In this document: one piece after another, positions 17,593-45,949 of the stretch
How positions within the stretch are numbered: position 1 is the first letter of the stretch
Layout: each line of letters opens with the position of its first letter
Source of the DNA: Cymbidium sinense
Lineage: Eukaryota; Streptophyta; Magnoliopsida; Asparagales; Orchidaceae
DNA length: 64,000 nt
Reading direction: 5' to 3'
Assembly: GCA_021442155.1 (NCBI GenBank)
Contig: CM038221.1
Span: forward strand, 27,123,906 to 27,187,905
Notes under the pieces: model-generated
Told to the model about the DNA's origin: nothing
Seen by the model: only the letters and a program-made list of their open reading frames with translations
Databases searched by the model: none
Position numbers and translations under genes: made by a program

Positions 17593-17597
17593 AGTCA
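17593..17597. repeat. Target-site duplication AGTCA, left of giant element
   Basis: AGTCA precedes TATTGACCTC, the 5' end of L4, and recurs at 50734-50738 right after the 3' end of L6. This pair bounds the complete element. Confidence 0.9.
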
Positions 17598-20474
17598 TAT
17601 TGACCTCATTTTTAGGATGAGCCCTCAACCCCTCCATCTTAGACATAGAACTCCTCTTAGACTTTAAGAGATCCTTAGTCTTAAGACACATCTAGTGATT
17701 AGGTGGACACTCAATCTAGCTATAGAGACTTAGAAGAGTTAGCCATAGGAATAGGTCATGCCTTAGGGGTGTTAGGAGAATTTGCCTACCCTATAGCTTG
17801 AACCAAATTTCTCACTTCCTTCCTTCAAGATAAAATTAAATCAATTACAACTTAATTGATTTCATCCAAACTCAAATCAATTCCAAATGATTGAAGCCTA
17901 TGATTGAAATCCCAAGTCAAAAATATTTCCTAAGTCCTTTGATTCCCTCTCATAGACTTAGCCTAAATATCAATTCAAATTCAATAAATTTTCTCACAAC
18001 ACATTTATATTCTCATTTATATTCATATGTATAAATGAAATATAAATTCAAATCAATCAAACTAAATCCAAAATTGAAAGTCCAAATCAAAAATATTTCT
18101 TAAGTCCTTAATTCCCTCTTAAGGACTTAGCCTAAATAAAGTTTAAATCACTTCAAATTCATGAAATTTTCTCATAAACCATTTATATTTCCATTTATAT
18201 TCACATATATAAATGAAATATAAATTCAAACAACCAAAACCAACTCACAAAAAATCAAACTCAAATTCAATCAAAATCCAACCTAAGCCTTTCAAGTCAA
18301 AATCTTGAACTTAACCAAATCAAATTCAAATCAAGCCAAACTCTTAATTTTATTTATGATTCAATCAATCCTACAATAATGAATCCAAATATAAACATAA
18401 AATTTAATCATCAAGCCAAAACTAAATCCAAAAAATCAACCCCAAGTCAAGCTCATGTTCACCCTTTTAAACTTGAAAGTATCGAATGAATTAAAACCCA
18501 TTTGATTTCAAACCACTTGCAAATGGATTTAAATTTCAATCATAAGTTCATATGTGAGTTCAATCAAACTCAAATCAAGCTTTGACCAAGCCATTTGACC
18601 TATTTAGGCTCACTTAACCCAAAGTGACCTAAAGTACCCTTATGAGCCAAATTCTAATCCTAACCAAATTGGATTGAACTAAGATGACATAAGCCTCACA
18701 TTATGAGCAACAATGATCATAAGATGATCAATCACTCAAATTTGGTCAAACTAAGTCAAACTTAAGGGTTGACCAAGTCAACACTTAGCCAAAATGAAAC
18801 CCAACATAGCCAAAATCCACCATAGGCCAAATTGAATGAAATCATTGATCAAAACTCATTCATGACCAATATTTGAGCCTAACCTAGCCCAATTGGTCAC
18901 TTGACCCAAATTGACCCAACTTGACCTAAAAAGTTAAAATGTGTCAAAACTTGTTCTAAGCCAAATTGATTGAAACCAATGGGTCAAGTTCATTCCAAAA
19001 TGATTGTTGAACTTAACCAAAGCCTCAATTGGCCAACTAGACCTAACTTAGCCCTATTGACCTTGAACCTAACTTGACCTAAAAGGTCATATTGAGCCAA
19101 AATTAAATTAAACCAAAATTGATTGGAAACCTAAGCCAACCCATGACCTAACCCAAATAGGTCAAATGGTTCAAATTGGTCAACTTGACCCATTTGACCT
19201 AAATGAACTGAATTGAACCAAATCTAAATATAAATCAAATTGAACCAAACCAAAACCACCAACACATTTCAAATGGCCATATGAACCTGACCCAACCCTT
19301 GGTTTGACCCAATTTGATCAATCGATCAATTTGACCCAAGTTGACCCATTTTGACCTAAATGGGTCAACATGAGCGAAATCACATCAAACCAACTCCAAA
19401 TTCAATGAAACTTGGTTTAACCCATTTTTCAATCATGCCAAACATATTCAAATTGAATCCCAAGCCAAATGATCATTTTACTCTACTCTATAGGGTAAAT
19501 TTTGGCCAAATTCACTTGAAATTTGATCAAATCCTCTTCATGACCACTTAACGCCCTCTTAGTGGACCAAGTGGACACTAGTGAGTGTGGTACACCTAAC
19601 CCAATGGGTTTGGGTCAGCCCAACCCAACCTAAGGCTAAAACTGACCACCTCACTTGAAATTAAGCACATGTAATCCCTCCTCCACTCAATTAAGGCACA
19701 TGGAACTCCACCACTCCACTCTACACTCCAAACCAAATGCAAGGACACTCCTAACAGCCTAACAAACCCATGGAATGAGGTCAATTGGATCAAAATGGCA
19801 AAATCCTTCTCGACCATCAAATTGCTTTAGGAGGAGGTATACTCCCCCTAATTCCAATTGATTTGATCAATCTCCAATTCAATTGAGCTTAGGGAAGTCA
19901 GAGCAAGCCATTGCAAGCGTCCCCAAGCTTTTTAGAGTGAGTTTAAATTTCCATTTTCTTAGTTTTCATAGATTAAAAATAGGGGAGCTCCACTTGAAAC
20001 CCATCTCACTCAATACTCCAAACCAACCCAATTCCTCCTTCAAGCACCCTCAAAGGATCAAATTGAACCCACTCCAAGCTTCACACAAGTTCTCCAAGCA
20101 AGGAGGAGTGCCTTTGACTAAGATCGAGCTCAAGTGAAGGTGAAGTTGGTCCATAGGAAGATCCATCTGATTTCAACACCTCAAACCTTCAACAAGGCTT
20201 CGTCACCACCAAACGAAGCTACTTCAAGGGAATTGAGTGCCGGTGATAGCCTCTGGTAAGGTATGCCATTAAATTGAGTTTAGATTAGCCATAATTTGGT
20301 CCTTTGTGAAGTGAAGTTTCATCCCATGAAAAACTAGCCATTGGATGTGATCTCCTTTGCATGGTGATGGCGTGGGTTTAATTTTGTTTAAATCTGAGCT
20401 TAATCGAGCTTGGATCTTCCCTTAGAAGATGGACGGTGGCCATCTCCTGCAGGGAAGATCAGGGGTAAATCTTG

Positions 20475-20507
20475 GGCCGTCCATCCACGCATTTTGGATG
20501 GACGGCC
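20475..20507 (+). other. GC-rich hairpin of L4
   Basis: GGCCGTCCATCC at 20475-20486 and GGATGGACGGCC at 20496-20507 form a perfect 12-bp stem around ACGCATTTT. It is the longest version of the family hairpin. CACGTG follows at 20662-20667, inside a GC-rich patch with GCGCGCGCC. Confidence 0.7.
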
Positions 20508-21149
20508 ATGATTAAAACACATAGGATCCAAGGATTATCCCTTAAGAACCCCAAATTTAATCTCAACTGTATGATGCTTGATCAGACGGAGAGGGAGAAA
20601 GTAACACCACTAATGATGCGGTGCTATGATGTGACTACTTAAATAGCCACTCCCATCACACCACGTGGAAAGCGCGCGCCGCGTCTACCTTCATGTGGCA
20701 CCGACGGGATTAGCTATATAATTAGGGAATTAAATTATCTAATTAATCAAGAAAAGTTCAAATATTCATATCTAAGTGTAAAAAAATCATAAAAGTATGA
20801 AATAATTGACATATGAAAGATAATTGAATGTAGAATATTATAAAATTGATTTTGATGGATTTTGAATAGTGTTATTTTCTGAATTTGGGTTTTATTGGGA
20901 ATGTAATTAGGCTAATTACTCTGTGATTATTCCATTAATAATTCTCAAACTTCTTGTGTGTAATTAGTGGGATGACTTCTGCGTCCCCTAATTTTCTTGG
21001 GATTTATTAATATTTTAATTAGGGTAATTGTTGGATTCATTCCTAATTACTCCCCTAATGTAATTAAGCCTAATTAAGTGTGTAATCAGTGGTTTAATCC
21101 CTTGATTGAGTTAATTAAGGTTTTCATAAATGAATAAAAGGTTTATGGA

Positions 21150-21730
21150 ATAATTTTGGGATATTTTCGTTAAGCTTTTCCTTAAACCCCATCTTTCTTC
21201 CTTAATCCAAACTTAATTAAGGATTAATCCACCAATTACCTACCTAATTAATTTGATAAAATTCTAAAACTTTCCTGAACTTAACTAATTCATCTTGGGT
21301 AGCTGCTTAGGTGTTTAATAACCTAAGTGCATTGAAGAAATCAAAGTCCAACTCACATGTGTGAGTGGGATTATGAAATTACTATACTTAAACTTAGCTT
21401 AATTAATCATTAATCATGAGCCAAATGCATTAGGCTCATAATATTTTGTGATATTTTCTTTAAGCTATTCCTTATACCCCCTTTTTCTTCCTTAATCCAA
21501 ACTTAATTAAGGATTAATCCACTAATTACCTACCTAATTAATTTGATAAAATTCTAAAACATAACTAATTCATCTTGGGTAGGTGCTTAGGTGTTCAATA
21601 ACCTAAGTGCATTGAGGAAATCAAAATCTAACTCACATGTATGAGAGGGATTATGAAATTACTTAACTTAAATCTCTTAGCTTAATTAATCATTAATCAT
21701 GAGCTAAATGCATTAGACCCTTTTCTTCTT
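21150..21730 (+). repeat. About 290-bp tandem duplication inside L4
   Basis: The stretch from GGATATTTTCGTTAAGC (about 21159) through CTTAATCCAAACTTAATTAA, AATAACCTAAGTGCATTGA and the CACATGTGTGAG motif repeats almost at once, starting about 21450. L3 has this text only once (13400-13690), so the duplication is private to L4. Confidence 0.7.
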
Positions 21731-23851
21731 AGGTGCATTGCTGATTTAAATTCCTTTTGTGATTTTATGTTATATCTTTGGCTCATAATTATTTGATTAA
21801 GTATGCTAAAGTGGTGTAGGTAAGGGGTAATTAACATACTTAATTCATACCTTAACCTAATTAAGATATAAAAATCATCTAATCATCTCAAGATTAAACT
21901 AAAATGCCATACACATGGGGGAAATGGGTTAGGACCATCAAAAATTCTTTCACATTTTCTAAACCAAGCATAAAGCAAATTCAAAATATAGAAATCACAG
22001 TAAACAAACTTTGATTCACTTTAAACTTTCTTATTTTATAGGATTGTATTTAAGAATTAATTAGGGTGAATGAAGTTATATTGCTTTCATCATTGCTTTT
22101 TCAAGCATTCGCTAAATGCATGTCATATAGGCTATACTATAGATTAAAAGAGTTTGATATGCAAGCATATAATGATATATATTTATATCAATTGCATGTT
22201 TTGGCTAAAGTAAAAATATGAATGGCTATTATCACTATTAAATTCAAAATTATTTTCAAAACTTATAAATCAAATATCAAAACTAAAAGGTATGCTACTT
22301 ATATTTTATTTATAAGCATGTGAATATAAAATGTGTCTTATGTTTTTTCCTTTTTTCCTCTTAACATTTGAATAAGATTTGCAAAGTGCATAGTTATTTT
22401 AAAAGAACATAACACTTGTTTACAATCTATTCTTATCCTCTTTCATGTTATAACTTAAGAAGGATATTTAAATATACACACATAAATTGCATAAACAAAC
22501 CAAAAATTAAATAAACATAAACTTTGCATCTTTTTTTTCATTTATCTCTTTTGTACATGTATATGCATTTAAGGAAAGTGGTATATTAGTATGGACAACC
22601 CCAGGGTTGCGAGGCTTTAAGTAGCCCTAAGTAGGTCTTGTACCTTACACCCTGGTGCTAACAATGGTATCGTACTCACTTATGCCTTTCATACATACAC
22701 ATGTGCATATGAATAAAGGATAAAAGAATACCCCCTTTTCTACTTAATGAAAATCATGCATCATAAGGCATCTAAATTTTCTTAAGTGACACTACCTAGC
22801 ATTCATCATAAAGTGTGCTAAAAATTTTCACTTGTATGTATAGATATGCTTAGGATTCAGCTATATGCATGTTATACATGTTGAGAAAGAAATGAATTGA
22901 TGTGTGTGTTATGATATTAATTCACTGTACTTAATCTTAAAATGCCTTTCTTTTGATTATGTTTGTTTAAGAAAGATCTAAACTTAGCATTAATTAAAAT
23001 ACATAATAAAACATTACTAAATAAAATCAAACATGAACCTACTTTAGAAATTACTTAAGGTAGGGAAGGAAAGAGAAGTTCTCTTTTCCTCTTTACAACT
23101 TAGTAATTAATTGTAGATTCACTTAAACCAAATCAAAATACAAAATAAAATCAACCCAAATCAACTAAGCACTTAAATGAAACCACCCATCTAAGTTGAA
23201 TATCTTCACACTTAAAAAATCTAAGCCATGAAGCCATAGCTAAGCATACCACACAAACCTTTTAAAGCACACACATTAGACTAAGTCACCATTTCTAGCT
23301 TCAGGTTAGGGCGGTGCATGGTGTGATGTTTGCTTTTATTTTGTAATGTGTTGTTTCTAATCTGGATGTTAGGGTGAATGTGTGTAGAATAAATGGTAGG
23401 ATGATTTAGTCTAATCATTATCTTATGCAGGGGATTGTGCTTAAGGGGCAATGTAATAAAAATATAAATACTTTTATTGTGTGCTTATACCCCTAAGCAT
23501 AATTCAATAGGCCGTGGACTTGGTTACCCATGTGTGGTGCTAAGTCCAATATACATGCTTAGATTATATGGTTTGTTTAGCTAATCTATTTTGTGTGTTA
23601 GTTAGATTTACTTTTCTTTTCATGTACTTTTATAATTATAAATTTTGGAATGATTATATGGATTAGGATAACATTGGTCATAAGATCTTATGTACCATGT
23701 GAAGCCTTTAGCAAACCACATTCCAACCATCCAAAAGAAGGAACCAAAAGAAGAAAGAAAGAAAGAAAAGAGAAGAACAAAGAAGAAATAAAGACCCCCA
23801 TAACATGAATTCCTTGCTTAATTGTAATTAATTCATTTATAATCTGGGTTG

Positions 23852-24048
23852 TATAAAGGTAGAGCTCAGCTACCCAATTTGTTTTCGGGTTTGTGCGGTG
23901 GAAACACACCTTTTTATTCTTTTGTGTTAACTTTATAAAATATTTGATGCTTTGTTTAGTCTGTGCATTAAGATGACATCCTTTTTCTAGTTTCTTCCTT
24001 GCTTGATGTATGGCCTGGATGATGATTAGGCCCCTAGAAAAAAATAAA
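23852..24048 (+). promoter_or_regulatory. Putative TATA to poly(A) block of L4
   Basis: TATAAA is at 23852-23857 and AATAAA at 24043-24048, with the GGTAGAGCTCAGCTACC stem-loop between them. The second stem-loop (TCGGG/CCCGA of L1) is damaged here. Being the 5' LTR, this would have been the element's working promoter. Confidence 0.5.
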
Positions 24049-25287
24049 TCTCCTACCAAATTAATCAACTTAAAATTAAAAATAAATAACTCATAACCTC
24101 ATTTAAAGCCTAAGTTAAAATTAAGATAAAAGAATTAGTAACTCCTCAGTTGGATGTGTACTTTTTTTCTATCATGCATAAAATAATATTGTTTTCACTC
24201 TTGATTGAGGGTCACCTTTTCAGAACTTGGCTTATTTAGCAATACGTGCATGGTGGAAACACACCTCCTTATCTCATGATTTTGGCCCATAATCTTATTT
24301 CTCATGCATTAGGCATATGAATCCTAAGCTCAAGTCAAATGATTATCCAAAAAAAAATAAAATATATGAAAATTTGCATTAGATTTAAGTCATTTAAAGC
24401 ATGCCTTACATGATCTAGTCTCTTTAGGAGTGTAGTTTAAGGACTTAGTCTCTTTCTAAATAAATAACAACTAGCTATCTTGCATAACATAAGACTACAT
24501 GAATTTAAAATCATAGAGGAGTTGGCGCCACCCTGGTTGTAAGTCCAACCGTGGTTTATCCTCTCTATGGAGGTAAACCAAATACCATTTTTGCTTAGAT
24601 TTAGGTCATGCTTTTATCCTCACCAAAGCTCCTAGATTTAGGTTCGGTTGCGCTTCCCTCTGCTATAAGTATAAATCCTCACCTCTAGACATTTCCATAA
24701 CCTTGCATGAATTGTAAGCCTAAGCATTCTAATAAAAATTCAACTCAAACAATTAATTCAATTTCAAAATGTAAAGCCCAACCATAGGTAGTCGCTTACT
24801 AGTTTCCAAGTACATCCCCTACTTATTTTCATTTGGCTTTGATAAGAACTCCTTCCTCTTGATCGATCCCACTTGACTTTCTAAAAAATAAACCAATCGA
24901 TTGATAGTCCCACCTTTTGAAATCTTTGGAGAAAATGATCATTTACCTTAATCGAGAGTATTCCTAAGGATGTAATTAACTATGGAGGCTTGCCTCCATA
25001 GGGAACTTAACGGACCAGGTTTAAAATAAACCCTACATTACCTTTTCATGTAAAGTAAGGGAAGAATCTCTAGTACATATGCATACCCATTGTCCTGAGT
25101 CCTTAGGTGATAGTCCATTATAGGTGGTGACTTCATCTTTGAGATAGTACACTCTCCTCAATGTCACACATCACCCAATAAGAATCATGATCTACATCCA
25201 ACAAGCATATATATTTTATTTTCATTTATCCTCTTTTTTTTTTAATGGGGATATGAATCAGAATATATATATTTTTTCACCATGATT

Positions 25288-25305
25288 TTTAGTGACTGGG
25301 ATGGT
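25288..25305 (+). other. Degenerate primer-binding site
   Basis: TTTAGTGACTGGGATGG follows the 5' LTR by a few bases. It fits a site of the type TGGTGACTCCACTGGGGA, which I recall for plant Tat/Ogre elements, if about six bases were lost between the two ACT triplets and the first TGG was mutated. Position and partial match are seen directly. The exact primer tRNA is recalled, not checked. Confidence 0.45.
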
Positions 25306-25503
25306 TCTCTCTCTCCATATTTGGTAAATGATCATTGTTTCCAAGTATCGAGTGGGTTTATGCTTTTGTATGAATCCAAGACTATCTTTCTTTCATTGGC
25401 ACTTCTTATTTTGTCCTTAAGTTAAGCTAGCCAACATCTTTAGGTTTTAGGACCTCACCTGTTGGTCTTAAAACTCTGGTTCCCAATGGGTGAAAATAAA
25501 AAT

Positions 25504-25553
25504 CTTTAATAAAGAAAAATTATTAAAGACCTCCTTACCATTTTATGGTAAGG
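25504..25553 (+). other. Two perfect hairpins at the start of the leader
   Basis: CTTTAATAA (25504-25512) pairs with TTATTAAAG (25520-25528). CCTTACCAT (25533-25541) pairs with ATGGTAAGG (25545-25553) around a 3-base loop. They stand just upstream of the long hairpin array. The rest of 25306-25830 is non-coding leader with nothing else I recognise. Confidence 0.65.
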
Positions 25554-25833
25554 AAAGGTTCATTCTAAAATAAAGACAAATAAATAAAAAGTTTGCTTTT
25601 CAAAAGCACTTTAAAATGCACTTAAATAAAATATTTGCACTACATCTAATAATTTTTATAATTATTATACGTAGAAATATTTCAAAAATAAAACCAATAA
25701 TCATAATTTTCAAAAAGCAGAAAATGAACTTTTTCACTCAATTCATTTTGATGGAGACTTCATTTTCAAAAATAAAATTGCAAGAAATCATACTTTCAAA
25801 AAAGCATACAATTTGAAGATGGGCCTTTCCATG

Positions 25834-27386
25834 CAACACATCCAAATGTGTTGGATGGATATTACATCTTCAAGCAAAATCACAACTTTGAAATTCCACT
25901 CAACACACCTCGCATGTGTTGGGTTGGAATTTTACATTAAAAAAGCACATATGAAACCTCCATTCAATATACCCACATTTATTGAATGAAAGTTTCATTT
26001 CAATCAAAATCAAAATAAATTTTCAAAAGCACATATGAATATCTCCATTCAATATACCCAAATTTATTGAATGGAAATTTCATTTCAAATAAATGACATT
26101 ATTTTGAAATTCCACTTAACATATTCCATATATATGATTATTAGAATTTTTCAAAAGCAATAATCACATAAAATACATCTTTGAAAATGAAATATAATGA
26201 TTTCCATCTTACATACCTAAATTTGTTAAATGGAAATATCTTTTTTCAAAATCAACAAAAACAAAAAAATTTTAAGAATATATTTGAAACTTCATTCTAG
26301 CATACCACATTTGCTAAAATGAAGTCTCCCTTTTCCAAAACAAAAAAATTAAACATATTTTGAATCTCAAACACTCAAATGAATCAATTTCAAAAAATTT
26401 TTTAAAAAAAAACACATTTGAACTTCATTTAGCATAAAAAGTCAAGTCTCCATTTTTCAAAAAGATCAAAACAAAAAAGAACACTTGATTTTATTCTTTA
26501 GCACCATATTTGCTAAAGTGAAGTCTCCATTTTCAAAACAAAATCAAAACACAAAATTTTAAACATTTTGAATTTCATTTAGCATACTCAATTTGCTATG
26601 AAATTTCCATTTCACAAAAATTAAAAAATACATTGAACTTCATTTTAGCATACCAATTTGCTAAAGTGAAGTCTCCATTTTCAACAAAAATCAAAAAAAG
26701 AAACACTTTTGATTTCATTCTTTAGCATACCATATTTGCTAAAGTGAAGTTCCCATTTTCAAACAAAATCAAAACAAAAAAAATTAAACACATTTTGAAT
26801 TTCATTTAGCACAAAATTTGCTAAGTGAACTTTCATTTCACAAAAAGAAATACATTGAAACTTCATTTTAGCACACCATTTTGCTAAAGTGTCTCCATTT
26901 TCAATCAAATCAAACAAAGAAACATATTAGATCCTTAGCCAAATTTTCTAAGGATCCTACTTTTTCAAAATCAAATTAAAATCAAAAGAAACACATTAGG
27001 ATTTTCTTAGCATATTCAAATTTGCTAAGAGTCCTATTTTCAAAAAATTTCCAAAAACAAAACACACTTAGATTTTCTCATTTAGCATACCCAAATTTGC
27101 TAAATGAAAGTTTCATTTTCAGATCACAAATGACTCACAAAAAAAGCAAACAAAGAAAAAGAAGAAATTATTTTCAAACACCCCACTTAGCATATCCAAA
27201 TTTGCTAAGTGAGTAGATTCCAAAAAAAAAAAATCAAAATCAAATTGACCCTTTACTTTAACATACCAAATTTGTTAAATAAAGGTCCTCAAAATAAAAT
27301 AAAAAATTCAAATATGAACCTATGGAAGCATCTCTTCAAAAAATATTTGAACCCATTTTCAACATATCCAAATTTGTTGAAAGTGG
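25834..27386 (+). repeat. Tandem array of about 20 hairpin units in the 5' leader
   Basis: Roughly every 55-105 bp there is an inverted repeat around a short loop, most often a form of TACCCAAATT. Units are separated by A-rich spacers such as TTTTCAAAACAAAATC. Clear units: CAACACA/TGTGTTG (25834-25853), the same plus ATTCCA/GGAAT (25893-25930), CATTCAATA/TATTGAATG (25961-25988), CCATTCAATA/TATTGAATGG (26045-26074), TTTCCAT/ATGGAAA (26201-26236), CTTCATT..TAGCA types (26289-26325, 26490-26525, 26572-26605, 26637-26672, 26713-26750, 26800-26830, 26859-26892), GATCCTTAG/CTAAGGATC (26930-26956), AGGA..CTTAGCA/TGCTAAGAGTCCT (about 26997-27036), CATTTAGCA/TGCTAAATG (27079-27106), CACTTAGCA/TGCTAAGTG (27184-27211), TTTAACA/TGTTAAA (27257-27279) and TTTCAACA/TGTTGAAA (27357-27382). 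Weaker ones lie near 26105-26150 and 26420-26450. Stems differ from unit to unit yet remain paired. It is non-coding. Confidence 0.85.
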
Positions 27387-28280
27387 ATTCTACATTCAAA
27401 AAATTCCTCTTCCAATCAAATCTCAAAATCTATTCTAAATAATTTTGAAACACTTTCAAGATGTTGAGTATGGGTTCAAATTCTGAATTCTAAATTCAAA
27501 ATCAACAGGAATCTAATCCACATTTATTTTCAACATTGCATACTTTCGTTCAACATCGCCTATAGTTCGAGCTGATGGCAACAGATATGTTTACCTTTCC
27601 CATGGGATGGACCGCCTCGTGATCCTTCCTCGCTCTAACTATGCCACCTCATCCACTTTGGATGAGGCTTTGTGAGGCCCATTACATGTGAGGGACTCCC
27701 CATGACCAGTAGCAAAGTGCGTGAGCTGGTCATTCATTGACATGCCATCGATTTTGATTTCCTCACCAAGAGGAAGGCAAAGTGGCAGTTCCCACTATAG
27801 TGCTGTGTATCTCTGCTAGGGCTAGCACCCACTCATTAGCATCTTCCAAGGGGAAGGCTCCTCTGATTTTGAGGTCGGATCTAGCTCTTACTCTACTCGC
27901 CCCACCAAGACCCAAAGAAAGAACAAGAACTGCATGATAAAGCGTTATCATACTCCCATCGCTAGGGAGATGGTGGCAGCTACATGGTCAGAGGAGTTGC
28001 CCACTTTATCCGGGTTACAATGAACCCTTCCATCCTCTCGGGTACAGAGGATGCGAGGATCTGCTTCACCTCCACTGGTTCGCCACCACCAGAGTGAGGA
28101 GGTCATATGCCAGCCTCCATTTAGTTTTATGCCGTGGCTGCTAGACGATGAACCGGACTCAATTTGATTTGAGATCTCATATCGTAGCATGGGAAGCATC
28201 TTAGGTAGAGAGGGCGGAGGCCCATACTAGTTCATATCACCAGAGTGGAGGTTTAGGCTGTCCTCTGACTCATTGATTTT
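27387..28280 (+). other. Leader between hairpin array and gag
   Basis: No protein or repeat is recognised here. Base composition shifts from A-rich leader to mixed sequence near 27540, so gag may begin in this stretch, but I could not follow a frame. ORFs on the minus strand at 27763-28199 have no recognisable motif and look like chance ORFs. Confidence 0.4.
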
Positions 28281-30200
28281 CTGACACCCCTACCCATCGA
28301 TCATACCGACAATATTCTGCTCATGGGGACTACCCATCATAGAGAGAGCTCCAGAGAGTCGGTGTCTCCACCACACCGCTTCTACCCCCCTCCATCTCAT
28401 GTCCATGTTTCAAAGATTCTCCCACCAAAAGGCCCGGGAGAAGAGAACCTTAATGATCCCGCTATGCCAGTGATCCCAACCTTCACACCTCATTGAATGG
28501 TGAAGAAGGAATGGACCTCAAAGTATAGTGGTCATCCTTCACCACCACCACCATAAGACATGAGATGATTGTAGCAAGTTGTGAGGAGAAGGTGATACCA
28601 CTGCATATGATGATAGCCTCCTAGAGTGTCACCCCATGAAAATTCAGGATGTAGAGCATTTCTTCCAGCGAGTATAGCCCTCACAAGGTTGATTCTCCAG
28701 CAGCAGGGGAGGTTCGGTGCCTCACATTACATGATAGTGATCCCACCACCGATCAGCTGAAGTAATTTGTGTCATTTCTGATAGATTATTCTCTAGATGA
28801 TATAGTGGCTCATTATCTAGGATAAGAGATCCTAGATATGGTGAGGAGAGAAGATCCTTTGATCCCAATGAAGATGATTTATTGGGAGACTGGGGTTTGC
28901 ATGGTGGTAGATACTGGGGATCCTCAGAGAGTAGTAGACTATGGAAGGTGTTGAGGTGAGGAAGACACCCACTCACCCAACACCTCACAATAAAGCAAAA
29001 AAAAGATGAAAAGATAGATAGGATGGAGAAGAGGCTCAAGATCGAAGCATATCTTAGCATTCAAAACCAAGCCCCACTTCATCCTACCACCGAGACTAGT
29101 CACCAGTTGGTGCATGTCTTGGACCCACCAAGACTTTACCTGTAGAGCAAGGTAGCACCAGATGTATAGAAGGTAGTGGATAGTACCTCCATACAAGAAA
29201 AAGATATCAAGATCATGGTTGAGCAGCAGCTAAAGGAAGCGCTGGCTCAAGTCCAAGGAGGATCATCAATTGCAAAGGATAGACCCTACACAGAGGAATT
29301 TGATGCAATCCAATATCCTAAGAGGTTCGTGCCTCCTTCCTTCAAGTGTTTTGATGGCAATGGGAACCCAAGGTAGTACTTTACTCTTCCCTCTCTTTTT
29401 CAGTAGGTTAGTGGGTATAGCATTTGACTGGTACGCTAAACTTTTCAATAGTTCAGTGAAGACTTTTACTGAGTTGGAGCAACTATTTATCAAGAGATTT
29501 GCTGTAGCTCAACAAAGGGTCACTGCATCTCATATGGCTCAACAAAATCGGTGAGTCCCTCATTGATTACATTCTCGATGGCATAATTTGAGTATGAAAT
29601 GCAAACCACATGTTTAAACAAAGATGCCATCGAGATTCGCTTAAGAATATCCATGGCCCCTTCATGCTCAAAGGTTTCACCATCAAAACTTTTGAGAAAT
29701 TAATCAACAAGGATAGCTTGTAAGGAGAAGCCAAACAGCTTTCTAGATCTACCAATAAAGCCAAAGTCATAAGGTATATGAGAAGAAACTGGGGATAGCA
29801 AGGATAAAGGGAAAAAGCCGCCAGAAATTTGAGAGACTGCTCTCCACCGCTTCCACCTCCTCTACCACCATCGACACTGGCCGCACAATAGAGCCTCCCC
29901 ACCACACCTCCTCCTCGCCCACATCATTAGTAGCAAGACACATACTCCGTAGCTATGGTCCACCTACTTTTGGATAAACTTAACAAAGCCTTATTCATTT
30001 AAGAGGGAGGTAATCGAAGATCTTTAAGAATCTCTTAAAGAAGCTGATTTTACTACCCAACCTAGAGACCGGAGAGGAAGTGGGCAAAAGCAATGATCCT
30101 AACTTTATCCCTACCACATATGGTCATGTTTTGGAAGATTGCTTCACATTTAAGGACCGCTTGAACATAGCTTCAAGACCGGCTATAGTCATCCCAAGGA
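28280..30200 (+). pseudogene. gag: gag of the giant element (broken)
   Basis: Gag forms the particle of LTR retrotransposons. Several frames must be joined to follow it. At 28981-29080 there is a charged stretch that includes EKRLKIEAYLSIQNQ. At 29176-29376 an open piece ends in YPKRFVPPSFKCFDGNGNP, the usual start of the plant gypsy capsid domain. After a frameshift near 29380-29410 follows GIAFDWYAKLFNSSVKTFTE (about 29413-29472) with ELEQLFIKRF after it, a typical capsid motif of Tat-type elements. A second frameshift follows near 29550. At 30118-30170 YGHVLEDCFTFKDRLNI is the single His/Cys motif seen near the Gag C-terminus of this clade. Stops and frameshifts make it non-functional. Minus-strand ORFs here are shadows. 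Confidence 0.72.
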
Positions 30201-30862
30201 ATACCCATGGAACAACCATCCATTAGGGTAATCCTTGGGGATACTTATGATCCTTCCAAAACCAAAGAAGGTTGGGATATCTCCTTATCCAAAACCTCTA
30301 AGAAATTATCAAAAGATCAAGAAACTTTCCTCGAAGTCGCTCAAACCTCCAACATCAAGGAAGGTTTGCAAGTTGTCAGAGCCAAACTCAAGGAAAGGGG
30401 AGCTCAAGAAGCAAAGATGTGCCACTGATAGCCAAGAAAGTGCAACCACTAACCGAAGTCCAGCCTCCTGCACCTATACAACTATCGCTTTCAACTAGTT
30501 CTTCTTCTAGTAGACATCAGATGATGAGGGCATCAAATCCTCACCCCTCTTTTTACTTGATTTCTACTTTGTACCTCCTATCAAATCCAAGAAATTGAAG
30601 AATAAAGCTAGCTTGAATTATATCTATGTCACTTAATGGGTTGTCTAAATCTATTCCTAATAACTCTTCAAGTCAAAACAACAATTATAATAATTGATCA
30701 CCTCTTTCTCGATTAGTTGATTTTCCTACTATGAATGCTAAGTTTGCCTTGAGATAGACTTGGAATCATCTTCTGAGGGTCCCGGAGAAGTCGTAGGTGA
30801 GCTGATGCATGTAGAATCTTCCATTACCTGCCACAAGAGATCACCAAAGTCAACCTCCATAG
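30201..30862 (+). pseudogene. Gag-to-protease linker
   Basis: The sequence looks like remains of coding DNA, with short open stretches at 30207-30428 rich in Lys, Ser and Glu, but no domain is recognised. In Tat elements a variable linker of this kind separates Gag from the protease. The frame used by the protease opens after a TAG at 30860. Confidence 0.45.
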
Positions 30863-31654
30863 TGGCAAGGTTCTACCTCCTGGCAACCTCAAGATGAGGG
30901 AAACAAGTCATTGGTTCGTGAGGATCGAGAAGCCCCTCCACAGGATGCTCCACCCTTGGATATGCTTATGGAGGATCAGTCCAAGGTGGATTACAATGTC
31001 CTTTCTCACCTAAGAAAGTTGTCATCTAAGCTAAGCATATACGACACCCTTGTCTTATACAAAGAGATGAGGGAGTCATTAATCAAGGCTCTTCTTGATC
31101 CTGAAATATGCTTAGTTCAACTGACCGCTATTGGTGAGGAGGCACATTATTTTAGAGAAGCCCAGGAAATCATGGAGCACAACCATCCCCTCTACATTAC
31201 AATTGATATGGGTAAATTCAGACTTGCCAGAGTTCTCATCGATCCAGGTGCATCAATGAATATTATGAGTCTAAAGACCCTTGCATATTTGAGGATCGAT
31301 ATCTCCACACTCCACGGAGATCAGATGATATTGAGAGGATTCAATGAACAATGCGAGAGAGCTTTAGGTTTCGTAGCATTACCTTTAGAGATAGGTGACT
31401 GGAAGACTAAAGCCAAGTTTTATATCATTGATTCGAATACTTCATTCATCACTTTTCTCGGTAGTCCTTGGATACATCAGAATAAGATGATTCTATCCTC
31501 CCTCCATCAATGCATCAAGTTCAGGAAGGATGTGATTGAATACTATGTCAAAGGATATGAAAATCCATTTTCAGTTAGAGAGGTGAGATATATGAGGATG
31601 CGACCTACTATCTTCCTCAAAACACCCTTTCTCATGAACTTGGACAAAATTTAA
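30863..31654 (+). CDS. Retropepsin-like aspartic protease region of pol
   Basis: One frame is open from just after the TAG at 30860 to the stop at 31652-31654; there is no ATG at its start, so it was read as part of a larger polyprotein. Counting from the TTG at 30911 it gives 247 residues. Residues 103-115 read FRLARVLIDPGAS, where Asp111 is the catalytic residue and Pro replaces the usual Ser/Thr of D[S/T]G. Residues 182-189 read FLGSPWIH, the second protease signature (usually LGRPWIH). The enzyme would cut the Gag-Pol polyprotein in the particle. It is the longest open frame of the element and is flanked on both sides by broken sequence, so it is probably a relic that has not yet picked up a stop rather than a working gene. 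Confidence 0.75.
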   Translation, partial: WQGSTSWQPQDEGNKSLVREDREAPPQDAPPLDMLMEDQSKVDYNVLSHLRKLSSKLSIYDTLVLYKEMRESLIKALLDPEICLVQLTAIGEEAHYFREAQEIMEHNHPLYITIDMGKFRLARVLIDPGASMNIMSLKTLAYLRIDISTLHGDQMILRGFNEQCERALGFVALPLEIGDWKTKAKFYIIDSNTSFITFLGSPWIHQNKMILSSLHQCIKFRKDVIEYYVKGYENPFSVREVRYMRMRPTIFLKTPFLMNLDKI

Positions 31655-32586
31655 ATTCTAAAGAAAAAGAAAATAAAGAAAAAGAAAAAATAAATGAAAA
31701 TGAAAAGAAGAATGAAAATCCAATTGAACAAGAAAGAGAAATTAAAGAAGAAATAGAGCCACATATCACATTCCATCCACAGTTCATTCCATCATATGGA
31801 CATGTGGGTAGGATGACTTAACCTCTACCAGGCAGAGGTAGAGGCAAAATAAAGGCGGTCAGGGTGGAAGACTTTGGCCTTTAGCCAACAAAGTTATGTT
31901 CCAGTTCATAAGAGTGCCCCTACTATTCATATAGACTTGAAATCCAGTTCAAAGGATGAGTCCAATGTGATTAGCATACCAACAAACCCCTCTCAACTAG
32001 TTTCATTGGAGGTGACACTCGAGCTAGACAACGATGAAGAATGGGCCTCCAAATAAAGCAAAGTATTCGAATCAGATGTATGTAAAACTATCATGCAGCA
32101 GTTAAGAATCTTAGCTCTAGCCTCACTTTCATCTCAAAAAATTGAAGGTTTAGTAGTTAAGGAAGCCCCACAGTCTTTCAAAGATATGAAGCTGAAGAGA
32201 TTCTTTTTAGGATCATCATCCTTAAGTCCTGAAGTTGATGTAGAACTTGAGAAAAACTCATATAAAGAATTAATGGAATTACCGTTTGGCTTTTACTCAC
32301 CTTGTGTTCATAATATTATACAAAAAGGTTTGGTTCCTCATACATGATCAAGGCATAGGTCAGAGTATTTTTTAGAAGGCGTGGCAGTGTGGAAGCACAA
32401 TCGATCGGACTAGGATTGTTCTGATGGGTGTCATGATGATGATGCTTATTTTTTACCAATCATTTGGAGTCTGATAGGTTTTTTTCACACACCACCAACT
32501 CTTATGAGAATGTGTGTTTAGAAATCTCAAATGATTGAGATGATCTCCAAATCAAAGATGCACCACCAGAATTTGAAGAGGAGATC
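31655..32586 (+). pseudogene. pol linker between protease and RT, left of L5
   Basis: A Lys/Glu/Asn-rich low-complexity stretch (31660-31750) is followed by PLPGRGRGK (about 31828-31855) and two open pieces, 31874-32056 and 32093-32347, the second with KEAPQSFKDMKLKRFFLG. Such linkers are common between the protease and RT of plant Tat elements. It ends in PPEFEEEI at the AGATC target site, where L5 was inserted. The reading picks up again at 40043. Several stops are present. Confidence 0.6.
32582..32586. repeat. Target-site duplication AGATC, left of L5
   Basis: AGATC directly precedes TGTGGTGAAA and recurs at 40038-40042 after GGTCAACA. Both flanks are pol of the giant element. Confidence 0.9.
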
Positions 32587-33940
32587 TGTGGTGAAATTTT
32601 ATATATTGATTTCTAAAGAAGTAAAATATATACTTACATCTTCACTCTATGTGGGATAAAATGAAGATGAAACTATACATCTCTTCTTTTTATGCATTTT
32701 TGAGACCACGTAGATCCATAGATATTCTTATTGAGGGTGATTGTGTATGACATTGAGGAGAGGTGTATTATCTCGAAAGATAGAAGTCACCACCCTATAA
32801 TGGACCTAATCTCCTCAACAAAGACTCCTAAGGATAATGGGTCTGCATATGTACCAAAGATTCTTCATCTACTTTACATGGAAAAGTAAAGTAGGGTTTA
32901 TTTTAAACTGGGTTCATTAAGTTTCCTACAAGGCAAGCCCCCATAGTTAATTACATCCTAAGGAATGAGATCCCTTAGGAATACTCTTGATTAAGGTAAA
33001 TGATCGTTATCTCCAAAGATTTTAATAGGTAGGACCATGAATCGATTAGTTTATTTTGGAAGATCAAATGGGATTGATCAAAGAGAGGGAGTTATTATTG
33101 AAGCCAAAGGAAGATAAGTAGGAGATGCTCACAATGCTAGGAAACTTAGCGAGCATCTCAAACTTTCCTATGGTTGGGCTTTACATTTTCAAAATTGAAT
33201 TATTCATTTGAGTTAACTTTTTATTAGAAGTTTAGGGCTTATGATTCCATAACACAAGGTTAGAAAAATGCCTAAGAGGTGAGGATTTATGCTTATGGCC
33301 CATAGAAGGGAGAAAGCAATCTCAGAACCTAAATCTAGGGAGCTTTAGCGAGGGGGCCTAAATCTAAGGCAAAAAATGGGTATTTGGTTTGCCCTCCATG
33401 CGAAGGATAAACCACCCAGCTTGGACTTTCAATTGCACGGGGTGATTGCCAACTAACTCCTATAATTTTAAATTCATGTAGGCAAGTCATATGCTATATG
33501 TAAGATAGCTAGGATTATTTATTTAGAAAGAGACTAAGTCCTTAAACTCACTCTCTAAAGACTAGATCATGTAAGATGCTTCAAATGGCCTAAATCTGCA
33601 AATCATATTACATGTTATTTTTTAATTTTGACAATCATTTGACTTGGGATTATAGGATTCATATGCCTAATGCATGAGAAGTAAGATTATTGGCCAAAAT
33701 CGTGAGAAGGGAGGAGGTGTGTTTCCACTATGGCTCTCAAAGGTCAAGCCAAATTTCTCTAGTAAAGGTGGAAGCCCTCCAATCAAGAGTGAAATAAGAT
33801 GTTTTTGTGCATGATGTTGTAAAAGAAATACTCATCAAGCTAAGGGGTTGCTAATTCTTTTATCTTGATTTTTAATCTAAGCTTTAGGTGAGGTTATGAG
33901 TTCTTTATTTTAATTTTGAATTGTTAAATTTAGTAGAAGA

Positions 33941-34072
33941 TTTATTTTTTCCTAAAAATCTAATCCACATCCAGGCCATACATCAAACAAGGAAGAAACT
34001 AGAAAAGGATTGTGGTCAGGCACCATCGGACAAACCTGAAAATAAATTGGGTAGCTGAGCTCTACCCTTATA
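33941..34072 (-). promoter_or_regulatory. Putative TATA to poly(A) block of L5
   Basis: On the minus strand, TATAAG reads from 34072 to 34067 and AATAAA from 33946 to 33941. The distance is about 70 bp shorter than in L1, L4 and L6, which points to a small deletion between them. Confidence 0.45.
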
Positions 34073-37000
34073 CAACCTGGATTATAAATGAATTAAGTAT
34101 AACTAAGTAAGGAATTCATTATTATGGGGGTCTTCAAGCTTCATTTCTTTATTCTTCTTTTTTTTTTTTTTCTTTGGTTCCTTCTTTTGGATGGTTGGAA
34201 GGTGGCTGCTCTAAAGGCTTCACATGGTGCATAAGATGAGATTTTATGACCAATGCTCATCCTAATCCCCCATAACAATCATTCCAAAATCTTAATTGCA
34301 AAAATACATGAAAAGGAAAAATAAATCTAACTAACACCTGCAAAATAGAGATTAACTAAACAAACCATACAAATCACAAGCATGTATATTGGACTTAGCA
34401 CCCCACACATGGGTAACCAAGTCCATCTGGCCTATTGGATTATGCTTAGAGGTATGAGCACCTGCACAGCAAAAAGCAATTATATTTTTATTACAATGTC
34501 CCTTAAATACAATCCCATGCAGAAGACAATGGTTAGACTAAATCACCCTACCAATCATTCTACACACATTCACCCTAACATCCAGACTAAAATAGAACAT
34601 CACAAAATAAAAGCAAACATCAAACCATACACCACCCTAACCTAAAGCTAGAAGTGGTGACTTAGTCTAATGTGTGTGCTTTAGAAGGTTTGTGTGGTGC
34701 ACATAACTATGGTTTTAAGGTTTGAATTTTCTAAGTGTGAAGATGCTCAACTTAGATGGGTGGTTTTATTTAAGTGTTTAGTTGATTTTATTTTGTATCT
34801 TGGTTTGGTTTAAATGAATCCTACAATTAATTACTAAGTTTTAATGAGATGGAAAAGAGAAGAGAACTTCTCTTTCATTCCCCACCTTAATTAATTTCTA
34901 AAGTTGATTCATGTTTTTTTTAGTTTTGTTTAGTGAATATTTTATTATGTGTTTTAATTAATCCTAAGTTTAGATCAATTCTAAACTAACTTATTCAAAA
35001 AGAAAGGCATTTTAAGATTAAGTAAAGTGGACTAAATTCACAAAATATACATTGCTTCATTTCTTTCCCAATATGTATAACATGCATATGAATGAATCCT
35101 ATGCATATCTATACATACAAATGAGAATGTTTAGCACACTTTATGATGAATGCTAAGTGGTTTACTTAAGAAAATTTGAATACTTTATGATGCATAATTT
35201 TCATTAAGTAGAAAAGAAGTTTTCTTATCCACTTTTTCACATGCACACATATAAGTATAAAATGCATAAGTGAGTACGATGCCATTTTTAACCAGGGGTA
35301 TAGGCTATAAGACCTACTTAGGGCTACTTAAAGCCTCGCAACCACAGGGGTTGTCCAGACTAATATACCACTTTCCTTAAATACAAGCATATGTACAAAG
35401 AAATGAATGGAAAAGAAAGTATGCAAAAGTTTGTATTGGTTGATTAATTTTTGTTTATTCAATTTATATGTGTGAATATGAAGATCCTTCTTAGGTTATA
35501 ACATGGAACGGGATAAGAGTAGATTTGAGCAACTGTTATGTTCTTTTAAAAGAACCATACACTTTGCACATCTTATTCAAATCCATGTTAAGAGGAAAGA
35601 AAGGAAGCAAACATATAACCCATTTTTATATTCACATGCAAACTTATAAATAAAATATAAGTAACACACTTTCTCAGTTTTGGTAATTGATTCATATATT
35701 TTGAAAATACTTTAGAATTTAATAGTGATAATAATCATTCATATTTTTTACTTTAGCCAAAACATACAATTTGACATAAAGAAAATATTTTATTTTTATT
35801 TTGATTTTTGAAAAGAATGGATGCATGAAATTCATATGACATACACATTTAGCATGTTAGGAAAGAACTAAAGTGATGAAAGCATGTAAAAACATTCACC
35901 AATTAATTCTAAAGACAATCTCATGAAATAAGAAAGTTTAAAGTAAATCAAATTATTTTTAAAGAAGGTTTGATTTTATTTTAAGTTTGATTTAATTTGA
36001 CAAATGTGAGGTGAGTTTGCTATTTCTAACCCATTCCCACATATGTTGGTTATTTTAGTTTAATTTTTAGGTGATTAGATGATTTTTATATGTTACTTTG
36101 GTTAAGGTATGAATTAAGCATGTTAATTACCCCTTACTTATACCACCTTAGCATAGTTAACCAAATAATTATGAGCCAATGAGATGACATAAAACTACAT
36201 AAGGAATTTAAATCAGCAATGCACCTAGTAAGAAAAGGGTCTAATGCATTTGGCTCATGATTAATGATTAATTAAACTAAAGGGGTTTTAATTTAAGTAA
36301 TTTTATAACCCGTCTCACACATGTGAGTTGAGTTTTGATTTTCTTAATGTACTTAGGCTTTTGAACATTTAAGCATCTACCCAAGGTAGATTAATTGAGT
36401 TCTAGAAAGTTTTATAATTTTATGAAATTAATTAAGGGGATTAGTGAATTAACCCTTAATTAAGGATGGACTAAGGAAGAAAAGAGGGTTTAGGGAATAT
36501 CTCAAGGAAAGTATCCCAAAATTAATCCCCAATCCACATACTCACTCAATCAAAACTTAATTGACTCAATCATAGGGTTAACCACTAACATTATCATTAC
36601 ATTAAGGTAGTGATTAAGGAATGACTAGCAATTCTCCTAATTAAGCCACCAATAAATCCTAAGAAAATTAGGAGAGGCTGGGGTCATCCCACGAATAATT
36701 AATGGGTACTTAGCAAAATAATATTCTTAATAAAACCCAAATTCAGAGAAAAATTTTATTCAAATTCTATCAAAATCAATTTTAAAATATTCTATATTCA
36801 ATTATCTATCCAATGCAATTTATTTTATATTTTTCTAATTTTTTTAGGATTAGATATGAATTTTAGAATTCCATAACTAATTAGAATATTTAAATACCCT
36901 AGTTAAGTTTTAATTAGTTCGCATGGTGTTGGCCGTGTGCTTTTCACTTGGTGCAACGATTGGATAAACTTCGTCACGTATAGCGTCGCGTGGCGGCGCT

Positions 37001-37084
37001 ACGTGCTTTCTCGACCATCCGATCAAGGATCAGCGAGATTAAAGTCCGCAATCGGAGGAAAATCATGGGAGGCTTTTTGCTTCA

Positions 37085-37113
37085 CCATCCATCCAAAATG
37101 CGAGGATGGATGG
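37085..37113 (-). other. GC-rich hairpin of L5
   Basis: CCATCCATCC (37085-37094) and GGATGGATGG (37104-37113) form a perfect 10-bp stem around AAAATGCGA. It is the counterpart of the hairpins in L3 and L4. Confidence 0.65.
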
Positions 37114-40037
37114 CCAGAGATTCATCCCTGCCACTCTCTGCATAACATGGAGACCCTCCATCTTTGAGGCCATGATCCGAGCTTGATTGAGCTCGGATTG
37201 GAATGAAAATTAATCTAAGCATGAGTACAAGCACATCTAACAGCTAGATCAACATAAGATTGAAATTCACTTCATAAAGGACCAACATACATTGAACTTA
37301 AGCTCAGTTTAATGGCATACCTCACCGGAGGTGACTGCCGATGCTTGAATCCCTTGGAGAAGCTTCATCTGGTTGAGATGATGCTTTGTTGAAAGTTTGA
37401 GCTCTTGAGATTGGGTGGTTACTTCTAGAGACCAACCCCTTTGCCTTGAGCTCGATCTTGATCAAAGTGACTCCTCCCTAGCCTTAGGAACTTAGGAAAG
37501 AGCTTGGGTGAGTTTGATTGAGCTCATTGATGGAGCTTGCAAAAGGAATTGCACTAGTTTTGAGTGTGGAGTCATTTTGATTTTGAGTGGAGCTCCTCTA
37601 TTTTCAAGCAATGAAGTGGGATTTTGATTTCACTCTAGGAAGCTTGGGCAGGATGAGGAATGGTTTCTTTAACTTCCCTAGGTTCAATCAAATTGAGGAA
37701 TGTTGGATTGAATTTAAATTAGGGGGAGTATATCTCCCCCTTTGGAAATCAGACGTCCAAGCAATGCCTTACCATTTTGATCCAATTGACCATAAGGAGT
37801 GGGTTTGTTAGGCCGTTTAGGGTGTCCTTGAATTTGGTTTTGGCTAGGGAGTGGAATGGTGAACTTCCCATGTACTTGAATTGAGTGTAAGGAGGATTCC
37901 ATGTGCTCCATTTCAAGGCATGTGGTCGGTTTGGCCATTGGGCTAGGTTAGGCTGACCCACACCCATTGGGTTGGGTGCACTACACTCCTTATTGTTCAC
38001 TTGATCCACTAAGAGGGTGCCAAGTGTTTATGGAGAGGATTTGACCAAATTCCAAGTGGATTTGACCAACATTTACCCTATGGACTAGAGGTAAAATGGT
38101 CATTTGACCTTGATTTCAGTTTGGGCATGTTTGGTATGATGATAAAATAGGTTTGGCCAAGTTTCATTGAATTTGGAGTTGGTTTGATGTGATTTGGCTC
38201 ATGTTGACCCATTTAGGTCAAAATGAATCAACTTGGGTCATGTTGACCAAATGGTTAAATTGGGTTAAACCAAGGGTTGGGTCAAATTCATATAACCATT
38301 TGAAATGTTTTGGTAGCTTTGGTTTGATTCAATTTGGTTCATTTGATTTCATCAAGGTCAAATGGGTCAAGTTGACCAATTTGACCCATTTGATCTATTT
38401 GAGCTCGATCATGGGTTGGTTTTGATTTGGTTGGTCATATGAATGGGATTGGTATCTTTGTTTCCAATCAATTTGGGTTGAGTTTAAATTTGGCTCAATT
38501 TGACCCTTTAGGTCAAGTTGGGTTCATGATCAATTGGGCTAGGTTAGGTCTAGTTGGCCAATTGAGGCTTTAGTCAAGTTCAACAATCATTTTGGAATGA
38601 ATTTGACCCATTGGTTTCAATCAATTTATCTTAGATCAAGTTTTGACACATTTTGACTTTTTAGGTCAAGTTGGGTCAACTTAGGTCAAGTGGCCAATTG
38701 GGCTAGGTTAGGCTCAAATATTGACTTGGTCAAGTTCAAACATTGGTCATGAATGAACTTGGATCATTAGTTTCAGTCAATTTGGCCTATGGTGGATTTT
38801 GGCTATGTTGGGTTTCATTTTGGCTAAGTGTTGACTTGGTCAACCATTAGGTTTGACTTATTTTGACCCAATTTGAGTGATTGATCATCTCATGATGATT
38901 GTTGATCATGATGAGAGGTTTAGGTGGGCTTAGTTCAATCCAATTTGGTTAGGATTAGAATTTGGCTCATAAGGGTACTTTAGGTCACTTTGGGTCAAGT
39001 GAGCCTAAGGGGTCAAATGGCCTGGTCAAATCTTGATTTGAGTTTGATTGAACTCACATATGGACTTATGATTGAAATATAAATCCATTTGCAAGAGATT
39101 TGAAGTCAAATGGGTTTTGATTCATTTGATAATTTCTAGTTCAAAGGGTGAACATGAAATGGATTTTGGCTTGATTTTTAAATTGAGTTTTGGTTAAGTG
39201 ATTGAAGTTTGTATTTATATTTGGATTCATGATTGAAGGATTGATTGAATCATGAAGAAAAATTAAGAGTTTGGCTTGATTTGAAGTTGATTTGGCTAAG
39301 TTCAAGAATTTTACTTGAAAGGCTTAGGTGGGATTTTTGATTAAATTTGAGTTTGAATTTTTGAGTTTGGTTTTGGTTGTTTGGATTTATATTTCATTTA
39401 TATATGTGAATATAAATGAGAATATAAATGGGTTATGAGAAATTTTCATGAGTTTGAAGTGATTTGAACATGATCTAGGCAAAGTCCCTAAGAGAAAATC
39501 AAAGTGACTTAGGAAATATTTGTGAATTTGGATTTGACTTTTGGGTTTAGTTTGATTGATTTGAATTTATATTTCATTTATATATGTGAATATAAATGAG
39601 AATATAAATGAGTTATGAAATTTTTATGAATTTAAATTGATTTAGATTTTATTTAGGCTAAGTCCATGAAAGGAAATCAAAAGACTTAGGAAGGATTTTG
39701 AGCTTGGAATTTCAATCATGGATTTCAATCATGTGTTTCAATCATGTGGCATGGATTTGAGTTTGGAAAATCAATTAGGCTTGAATTGATTTAGGTTTGA
39801 TGTTGATTTGATTTGGAGTTTGACTTAAAGGAAGGAAGTGAGGAATGTGATTTAAGCTATGGGGTAGGCAAATTTTCCTAACACCCTTAAGGCATGACCT
39901 ATTCCTATGGCTAACTCTTCTAAGTCTCTAGGGCTAGGTTGAGTATCCACCTAATCATTATAAGTGTCTTAGGTCTAAGGATCTCTTAAAGTCTAAGATG
40001 GAGGGGTTGAGAACTCATTCTAAAAATGAGGTCAACA

Positions 40038-40042
40038 AGATC
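40038..40042. repeat. Target-site duplication AGATC, right of L5
   Basis: It is the partner of 32582-32586. Removing L5 and one copy rejoins pol. Confidence 0.9.
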
Positions 40043-43310: not shown

Positions 43311-43404
43311 ATCAATGAAAGAATAAAAATTTGATTCCATTTCATCAAAATCTTCTCTTCTTTTGAAGCATTATTTGCTTGTCTTGTGAATCTGCCATGA
43401 CATG

Positions 43405-43760
43405 TTTAGGGTAGGTGTAAGAGTCCCCCAGGGGCATCCTATCCCTCTTTCATAACATAAACACAATCAAACATAATCTCCACTATTAGAATAGGTGTGA
43501 GAGAACCCAAGAGGCATCTTATTTTGATTAGCATAACTGAGTTAGGTGTAAGAGAACCCAGGCGACATCCTTTCTTAGTGGGAAATCCCATTTGCCACCC
43601 ATGACACCACTTCATCAAAATTCCTCAAATGTGTTTAAGGTAGGTGTAAGAGAACCCGAGAGGCATCTATTCCCTTTAACACAAGCACAAAAAATAAAGA
43701 CATATCTTTTGTCTGGGCTTTTTTTGATGTGAGAGAAAGCCCCTTGTGGCACTCACTCAT
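43405..43760 (+). repeat. Repeat family 1: TAGGTGTAAGAGAACCC units
   Basis: Units TAGGTGTAAGAGTCCCCCAG (about 43411), TAGGTGTGAGAGAACCCAAG (about 43492), TAGGTGTAAGAGAACCCAGG (about 43545) and TAGGTGTAAGAGAACCCGAG (about 43642) are each followed by GGCATC or GACATC. A looser copy starts GATGTGAGAGAAAGCCCC (about 43717). Spacing is irregular, 50-100 bp. Confidence 0.7.
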
Positions 43761-43824
43761 TAGCTGCTCTAGGTCTGGTCTACATGCTACCTTACTAGTA
43801 TGTAACCCAGTGGTCACTTGTTTA

Positions 43825-45260: not shown

Positions 45261-45454
45261 GTTAATAGACTAACCCTTTGGATTGGTTAATCTAGTTAGG
45301 TCTAGGCCTCCATGGATCCTACTCAATGCGATCTATCGCAAAGTAGCATGATCCATTTCAAAATCCAAAATTATAAATCTGAAACAAATTTAACCCTCCT
45401 CTCTTAGTGGAGTGAAATAAACAAAATAAAATAATCAATCAATTTAAATCAAAA

Positions 45455-45790: not shown

Positions 45791-45949
45791 GAGTCACATT
45801 ACACTAAGCTCTGATTCTTTCTACACCTTGGGTTAGGAGTAGACCATTTCTGTTAGTGCTTGTGATCTTTCGGTATTGTTGATCATTTCAGTCAACACCA
45901 ATACATGAAGTGTTCCTTGTTAGCCACACCACACCTATTACGCGCCCTT

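Follow-up and report, generated by a model that had tools for sequence, protein, structure and literature searches.

Retroviral structured leaders rely on a few distinct single stem-loops. According to the text available for one account (PMC5902531), the leader of plant pararetroviruses combines a large stem-loop with upstream ORFs and what may be a packaging signal. Large elements often have expanded non-coding regions that hold tandem repeats (PMC6317226), and tandem repeats are common in the Tat lineage, where those named sit in the 3' untranslated region (PMC7004042); neither main text contains a word starting with hairpin. Described features of Tat/Ogre elements include a dual RNase H and, for Ogre, a primer-binding site (PBS) to tRNA-Arg (PMC9289625); the main text of that source, on giant orchid Ty3/gypsy elements, has 0 occurrences each of hairpin and tandem. 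Additionally, the texts available on mutation report that hairpin stems can arise by template switching, though how far it maintains short ones is less clear (PMC8794818), and that arms are homogenised in yeast (PMC8604942).

Here we describe a hairpin array in the leader of a giant LTR retrotransposon from Cymbidium sinense, carried in a window of 64,000 nucleotides (the whole stretch of DNA analysed). The carrier resembles the giant orchid elements in its orchid host, its Ogre-like make, its large size and its large LTRs (PMC9289625, main text). Like the Tat/Ogre repeats, so far as the main texts describe them, the array consists of repeats in a large element, and its unit number also varies by copy (PMC6317226, PMC7004042); unlike those placed in the 3' untranslated region (PMC7004042), it follows the 5' LTR and is built of hairpins that co-vary. 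Its stem-loops fall between transcript start and first gene, as in retroviral and pararetroviral leaders, but whereas the pararetroviral leader in the text available is one large structure (PMC5902531), this one is about 18 tandem copies of one module. Matched stems and compensatory change are shared with template-switch hairpins, although those in the text available are microRNA and rRNA hairpins, not arrays (PMC8794818). In agreement with the initial annotation, which knew of no described array of this kind, the literature searched (titles and abstract openings, with subscription papers mostly outside its scope) held no hairpin array in a Tat/Ogre leader.

The element and its parts are as follows.

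17593-17597 and 50734-50738: direct repeats AGTCA, 5 bp, flanking the element (target-site duplication)
17598..50733, + strand: LTR retrotransposon (Ty3/gypsy, Tat/Ogre-like) carrying the array, from self-comparison, its ends and the target-site duplication
17598..25284, + strand: 5' LTR, about 7.7 kb, 3' end exact only to a few bases
25290..25310, + strand: decayed PBS region, close to TGGCGACTCCGCTGGGGA in several copies
29234..29554, + strand: open stretch with a weak Retrotrans_gag match below the Pfam cut-off
30863..31654, + strand: open stretch with weak retroviral aspartic protease matches below the Pfam cut-off
40277..40780, + strand: reverse transcriptase (RT) fragment, RVT_1 above the Pfam cut-off
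41090..41314, + strand: RNase H fragment of RT, RT_RNaseH_2/RT_RNaseH above the Pfam cut-off
45950..50733, + strand: 3' LTR, lacking about 3 kb present in the middle of the 5' LTR

The LTR pair and the AGTCA duplication identify an LTR retrotransposon; the 5' LTR starts with TA, the 3' LTR and others with TG. Long LTRs and a size of 33 kb, counting a nested minus-strand LTR at about 32627-40039 found by self-comparison, support the earlier placement of the array in the leader of a giant Tat/Ogre-like element. Domains run from gag and protease (both weak and below cut-off) to RT and RNase H of LTR-element type (above the Pfam cut-off). The protease stretch has 5 homologues at E<=1e-3, with 48-57% identity to four, two of them Dendrobium, and the RT fragment is 62-73% identical to four Dendrobium RTs among the 120 of 343 matches listed. 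An integrase placed downstream of RT distinguishes gypsy from copia; among 14 open stretches of at least 48 aa, the 10 scanned gave no match to it, the reading frame being broken. The same 10 stretches of this broken copy gave no second (dual) RNase H, and a PBS-like motif is present in several copies. Substitution divergence between the LTRs is 8.2% in the first part and 15.4% in the last, and the insertion is therefore old.

Several features of the LTRs stand apart from the array. At 48883-50733 the 3' LTR is 15% off its partner, against 8% for the first part, and the roughly 3 kb are missing at the join near 48883, which may reflect recombination between different elements. The palindrome TCATTTATATT-CACA-AATATAAATGA (10878-10903, 11058-11083, 46374-46399 and other LTR copies) lies within 180-bp tandem subrepeats and varies little between LTR copies of either orientation. 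A dyad of the GGTCAAATGGGTCAA type with 20-bp arms recurs in LTRs at 47552-47595, 19158-19201 and 58234-58277, with one-sided changes in 5 distinct copies. Much of the window (1-64000) is taken up by LTRs of about 7 kb, nested in one another in either orientation, and only 2 stop-to-stop frames reach at least 150 aa.

About 20 hairpins had been annotated at 25504..27386 around a constant loop. We find 18 paired units plus two degenerate ones, so the count stood; the array of the TACCCAAATT loop class, however, spans 25829-27386, and the first 325 nt (25504-25828) hold other palindromes. All seven arm pairs quoted earlier are present. The loop is not constant: a theme near TACCCAAATT recurs, with a length of 6-10 nt.

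25444..25474, + strand: single hairpin GTTTTAGGACC/GGTCTTAAAAC upstream of the array, also in the second lineage
25503..25529, + strand: palindrome with another loop, upstream of the array
25528..25561, + strand: hairpin CCTTACCAT/ATGGTAAGG upstream of the array, also in L063 of the second lineage
25629..25683, + strand: palindrome with another loop
25829..25858, + strand: hairpin u5, 12-nt arms plus loop
25896..25926, + strand: hairpin u6
25958..25991, + strand: hairpin u7
26043..26076, + strand: hairpin u8
26102..26157, + strand: degenerate u9
26202..26235, + strand: hairpin u10
26291..26323, + strand: hairpin u11
26420..26455, + strand: degenerate u12, right arm mostly gone
26492..26522, + strand: hairpin u13
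26573..26605, + strand: hairpin u14
26639..26670, + strand: hairpin u15
26716..26748, + strand: hairpin u16
26800..26830, + strand: hairpin u17
26862..26893, + strand: hairpin u18
26927..26959, + strand: hairpin u19, with different arms, CCTTAG/CTAAGG
27001..27034, + strand: hairpin u20
27076..27109, + strand: hairpin u21
27181..27214, + strand: hairpin u22
27252..27284, + strand: hairpin u23
27353..27386, + strand: hairpin u24

Centres of the 18 units lie 90 nt apart on average, stems reach 22 Watson-Crick pairs with interruptions, and the linkers are 51% A and 5% G. Between PBS and array, two hairpins are common to both lineages: GTTTTAGGACC/GGTCTTAAAAC in L063, L069 and L070, and CCTTACCAT/ATGGTAAGG (25534-25554) in L063. 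These are candidates for a classical dimer or packaging stem-loop. Covariance models of 4227 Rfam families gave 0 matches at E<=1 in 25200-28300, and an exact search of viral contigs with one 24-nt hairpin gave 0 matches.

Hairpins scoring at least 8 number 18 in 25500-27400 (overlapping the 18 units, though a different set), against a mean of 3.0 and a maximum of 8 in 300 shuffles and at most 9 in each of 62 other windows of the same size; these counts rule out chance hairpins of AT-rich DNA. Folding against shuffled controls, a check proposed in the initial annotation, gave z = -17.2 on the + strand and -11.5 on the - strand at span 70. The array's folding is less special in single 300-nt windows: on the + strand z falls below -5 in 6 of 9 windows inside the array and 21 of 307 outside, the lowest value lying outside, in an LTR, and on the - strand in 1 of 9 and 22 of 307. 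A covariance model recovered all 18 units on the + strand (E up to 0.017), the same units on which it was trained, and several on the - strand; nothing outside the array scored below E = 0.12.

At 34% of inner-10 positions in either arm the base departs from the one commonest among the 18 units, yet 156 of the 180 inner-10 pairs are Watson-Crick, whereas 20,000 right-arm swaps give 97.5 +/- 7.3 (maximum 132); the 18 units had been chosen for pairing, and a later sequence-only model, built from the same units, ignores it. When reduced to nine distinct inner-arm representatives, the array retains 77 of 90 Watson-Crick pairs against 43.7 swapped, with 0 of 20,000 swaps reaching this value; for the inner 8 pairs, one swap in 20,000 reached the observed pairing. 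Stem scores for own and swapped arms average 23.0 and 11.6 in this copy, and 17.0 and 10.6 in L063. Pairwise identity between units is highest in the loop, at 0.785 (13% gaps), and falls to 0.74 for the inner stem, 0.456 for the outer stem and 0.375 for the flanks.

We simulated independent decay from a perfectly paired ancestor in 10,000 runs with five rates and two trees, the first built with stem columns included and the second from flanks only. The paired fraction reached at most 0.85, against 0.87 observed, and near the observed divergence it averaged 0.49 and 0.51 with maxima of 0.67 and 0.68. The number of double-change pairs was matched in up to 137 of 1000 runs at higher rates. By parsimony, compensatory double changes fall on 10 or 18 branches depending on the tree and one-sided changes on 54 or 50, with 0-4 double changes in slid controls. 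In a pair-count test, the true register has 82.6% standard pairs, whereas shuffling gives 70.8% and sliding 33-48%, and two-sided cells number 36 against 15.3, which 0 of 500 shuffles reach; two of the five measures are unexceptional (reached in 47 and 361 of 500 shuffles). RNAalifold, unaided, proposes just the inner five pairs of the stem. The unexceptional measures apart, the decay simulations and the slid and swapped controls all place co-variation beyond phylogeny, which bears out the earlier claim that the arms change together more than neutral repeat decay allows.

The array is not peculiar to this copy. A genome search for the first lineage gave 11,980 first-look candidates, of which 40 were scored and this copy and all 39 others used. 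All 39 others hold array sequence aligning to the leader; one, L046, spans half of the leader and was excluded from the copy alignment. With this copy counted, 39 of 40 copies have more hairpins than any of their 40 shuffles (38 of the 39 others), the exception being L023, whose 4 hairpins equal its top shuffle. A protease search, with upstream parts read at 6 of 96 scored places, led through L063 to a second lineage, for which 40 of 11,233 first-look candidates were scored and 10 used; L064 is the same place as L063. The main leader match of L063 is 65.5% identical, with shorter pieces up to 82% and one 27-nt piece at 93%. The 10 copies used of this lineage hold 9 to 16 hairpins each, and 10 of 10 lie beyond every shuffle. 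Thus paired arms are kept at the same place in first-lineage copies and in a second lineage, a check that the initial annotation had proposed for family members.

Of the 907 hits that the sequence-only unit model returned at E up to 10, 819 were scored and 88 dropped for gaps. Units per copy range from 6 to 24 in the first lineage and from 7 to 22 in the second, and the Watson-Crick share is 80.5% of 7,550 cells and 83.1% of 1,860, respectively. Some stem positions have two states in lineage 1: position 3 is G-C in 326 units and A-T in 264, and position 5 is T-A in 457 and C-G in 138. Of 420 pairs in the 42 arm types that at least 3 copies have in common, 352 are Watson-Crick, against a swap mean of 272.7 and maximum of 301. 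Sharing has a limit: two lineages share the array, but five elements of a third family gave no unit-model match in the 780-840 nt read behind their PBS-like motif, and their 1-2 hairpins each lie inside the shuffle range (0 of 5 exceed it). The PBS-to-protease distance is about 3.8 kb in this family and 5.7 kb in the present element, which by the coordinates differs by about the array length.

The hairpin array is real, co-varying and present in every lineage copy looked at, and its modules are shown to be tandem repeats that vary in number between copies and remained paired as their arms changed. As the arms changed together and the same row stands in dozens of related copies, the pairing itself has been kept. 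In the explanation we favour, typically 15-20 short stem-loop modules follow one another in tandem along the leader, their loops conserved and the linkers between them rich in A and poor in G, and selection on the folded + strand RNA would keep the arms paired. We put the chances of this reading at about even. The folded RNA would present many equivalent stem-loops spaced by unstructured linkers, and the putative use we judge most likely is that Gag, or some other protein of the element, binds them multivalently for genomic RNA packaging or dimerisation. That the element packages or dimerises its RNA through such a beads-on-a-string leader, in which 15-20 interchangeable modules come and go through tandem duplication, each with its own arms still paired, is a tentative proposal. 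Such a modular, copy-number-variable RNA signal would be without precedent in the literature searched on LTR elements.

Several observations weigh against the RNA-module reading. The array-less family counts against it, as its elements manage without the array. G.U pairs are also not in excess over A.C, which speaks against a simple RNA-selection signature: this copy has 12 and 11, against swap expectations of 26.7 and 23.9, so that both are depleted alike, and one-sided variants among aligned copies comprise 225 G.U, 229 A.C and 249 transversions, with 37 two-sided Watson-Crick cells (22 of the 265 stem pairs were dropped, fewer than 20 copies having letters there). Among variants in at least 3 copies, A.C (29) exceeds G.U (21), with just 2 two-sided. 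Recurrent arm types have 31 G.U and 16 A.C (swap means 58.6 and 45.2), the direction that would be expected of RNA, although these counts need not be independent events. The majority of copies gives 16 G.U and 7 A.C in the inner 10 pairs, with two units ill-aligned, and single positions in lineage 1 differ (position 7, T.G 97 and C.A 7; position 6, C.A 105 and T.G 69). The idea that non-Watson-Crick pairs of this copy are post-insertion damage proved wrong: 36 of 41 (inner 12) are also non-Watson-Crick by copy majority and the remaining 5 differ, u13 and u19 being badly aligned.

Divergence from the majority among copies is 6.5% in stems, 7.1% in loops and 8.9% in spacers, with some misalignment, and 6.0 and 6.3% in the leader next to the array; stems being close to the adjoining leader, no stem constraint shows among copies. 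Branch length is mostly terminal (3.59 against 0.50 for other branches), and this divergence is therefore likely post-insertion and holds little information on the active phase. Variants shared by at least 3 copies are scarcer, per site, in stems (0.22) and loops (0.20) than in spacers (0.35), but similarly scarce in the leader outside the array (0.24 and 0.19). Of other roles, ribosome scanning through an AUG-free leader is unsupported, with 33 ATG in 25280-27575 against about 29 expected from composition, and kissing-loop dimerisation through the loop AAUU was likewise left unsupported.

The arms may instead be matched by mutation: in reverse transcription or replication, template switching at quasi-palindromes would rewrite one arm as a copy of the other, and tandem duplication would multiply the units. 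This main rival is possible, if somewhat doubtful, and it fits the pairing without wobble preference in this copy; the available texts report creation of hairpin stems (PMC8794818) and arm homogenisation in yeast (PMC8604942). Palindromes of the LTRs, taken as a mutation control (15 in the window, 12 with more than one distinct copy), nevertheless change one-sidedly in 67 of 605 cells and two-sidedly with pairing kept in 5, a comparison that loses weight, since LTR divergence arose in good part after insertion and falls short of that between units. Loop inversion is a known by-product of template switching, and it is rare here: across 50 copies the loop motif directly between arm ends is forward in 446 cases and inverted in 1, or 613 and 26 when no condition is set on the arms. 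The conserved loop and linkers would also be left unexplained. Of the two readings offered in the initial annotation, a simple RNA-selection signature has the equality of G.U and A.C against it, and frequent template switching the rare loop inversion and one-sided LTR palindromes; none of the wobble, LTR-palindrome and loop-inversion tests is decisive between RNA selection and arm copying.

The palindromes might also act as DNA, each a site for a dimeric protein that binds DNA, so that the row behind the LTR would resemble an insulator or a promoter array. Symmetric arms and the absent wobble preference fit a DNA-level requirement, and the gypsy insulator, with its repeated binding sites in the 5' leader, offers an analogy. 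We consider this improbable: half-sites of one protein should be alike, but the arms vary widely (TTAGCA, CAATA, CAACACA, CCTTAG), and the most alike part of the unit is the loop. That the array is a decaying tandem repeat, with hairpins from one palindromic founder and co-variation by chance, is very improbable, for although adjacent units share arm types and copies decay one-sidedly, simulated decay never attains the observed paired fraction, which rules out neutral decay for between-unit differences, and the failure of slid and swapped controls is a strong argument in the same direction.

Co-variation among repeats alone need not signify RNA selection. The roughly 18 co-varying modules of this leader amount to internal replication, which would separate RNA selection from arm-copying mutation by counting. 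Additionally, if its modules act as the RNA signal we favour, the array would be a natural system for the effect of RNA-motif copy number on packaging.
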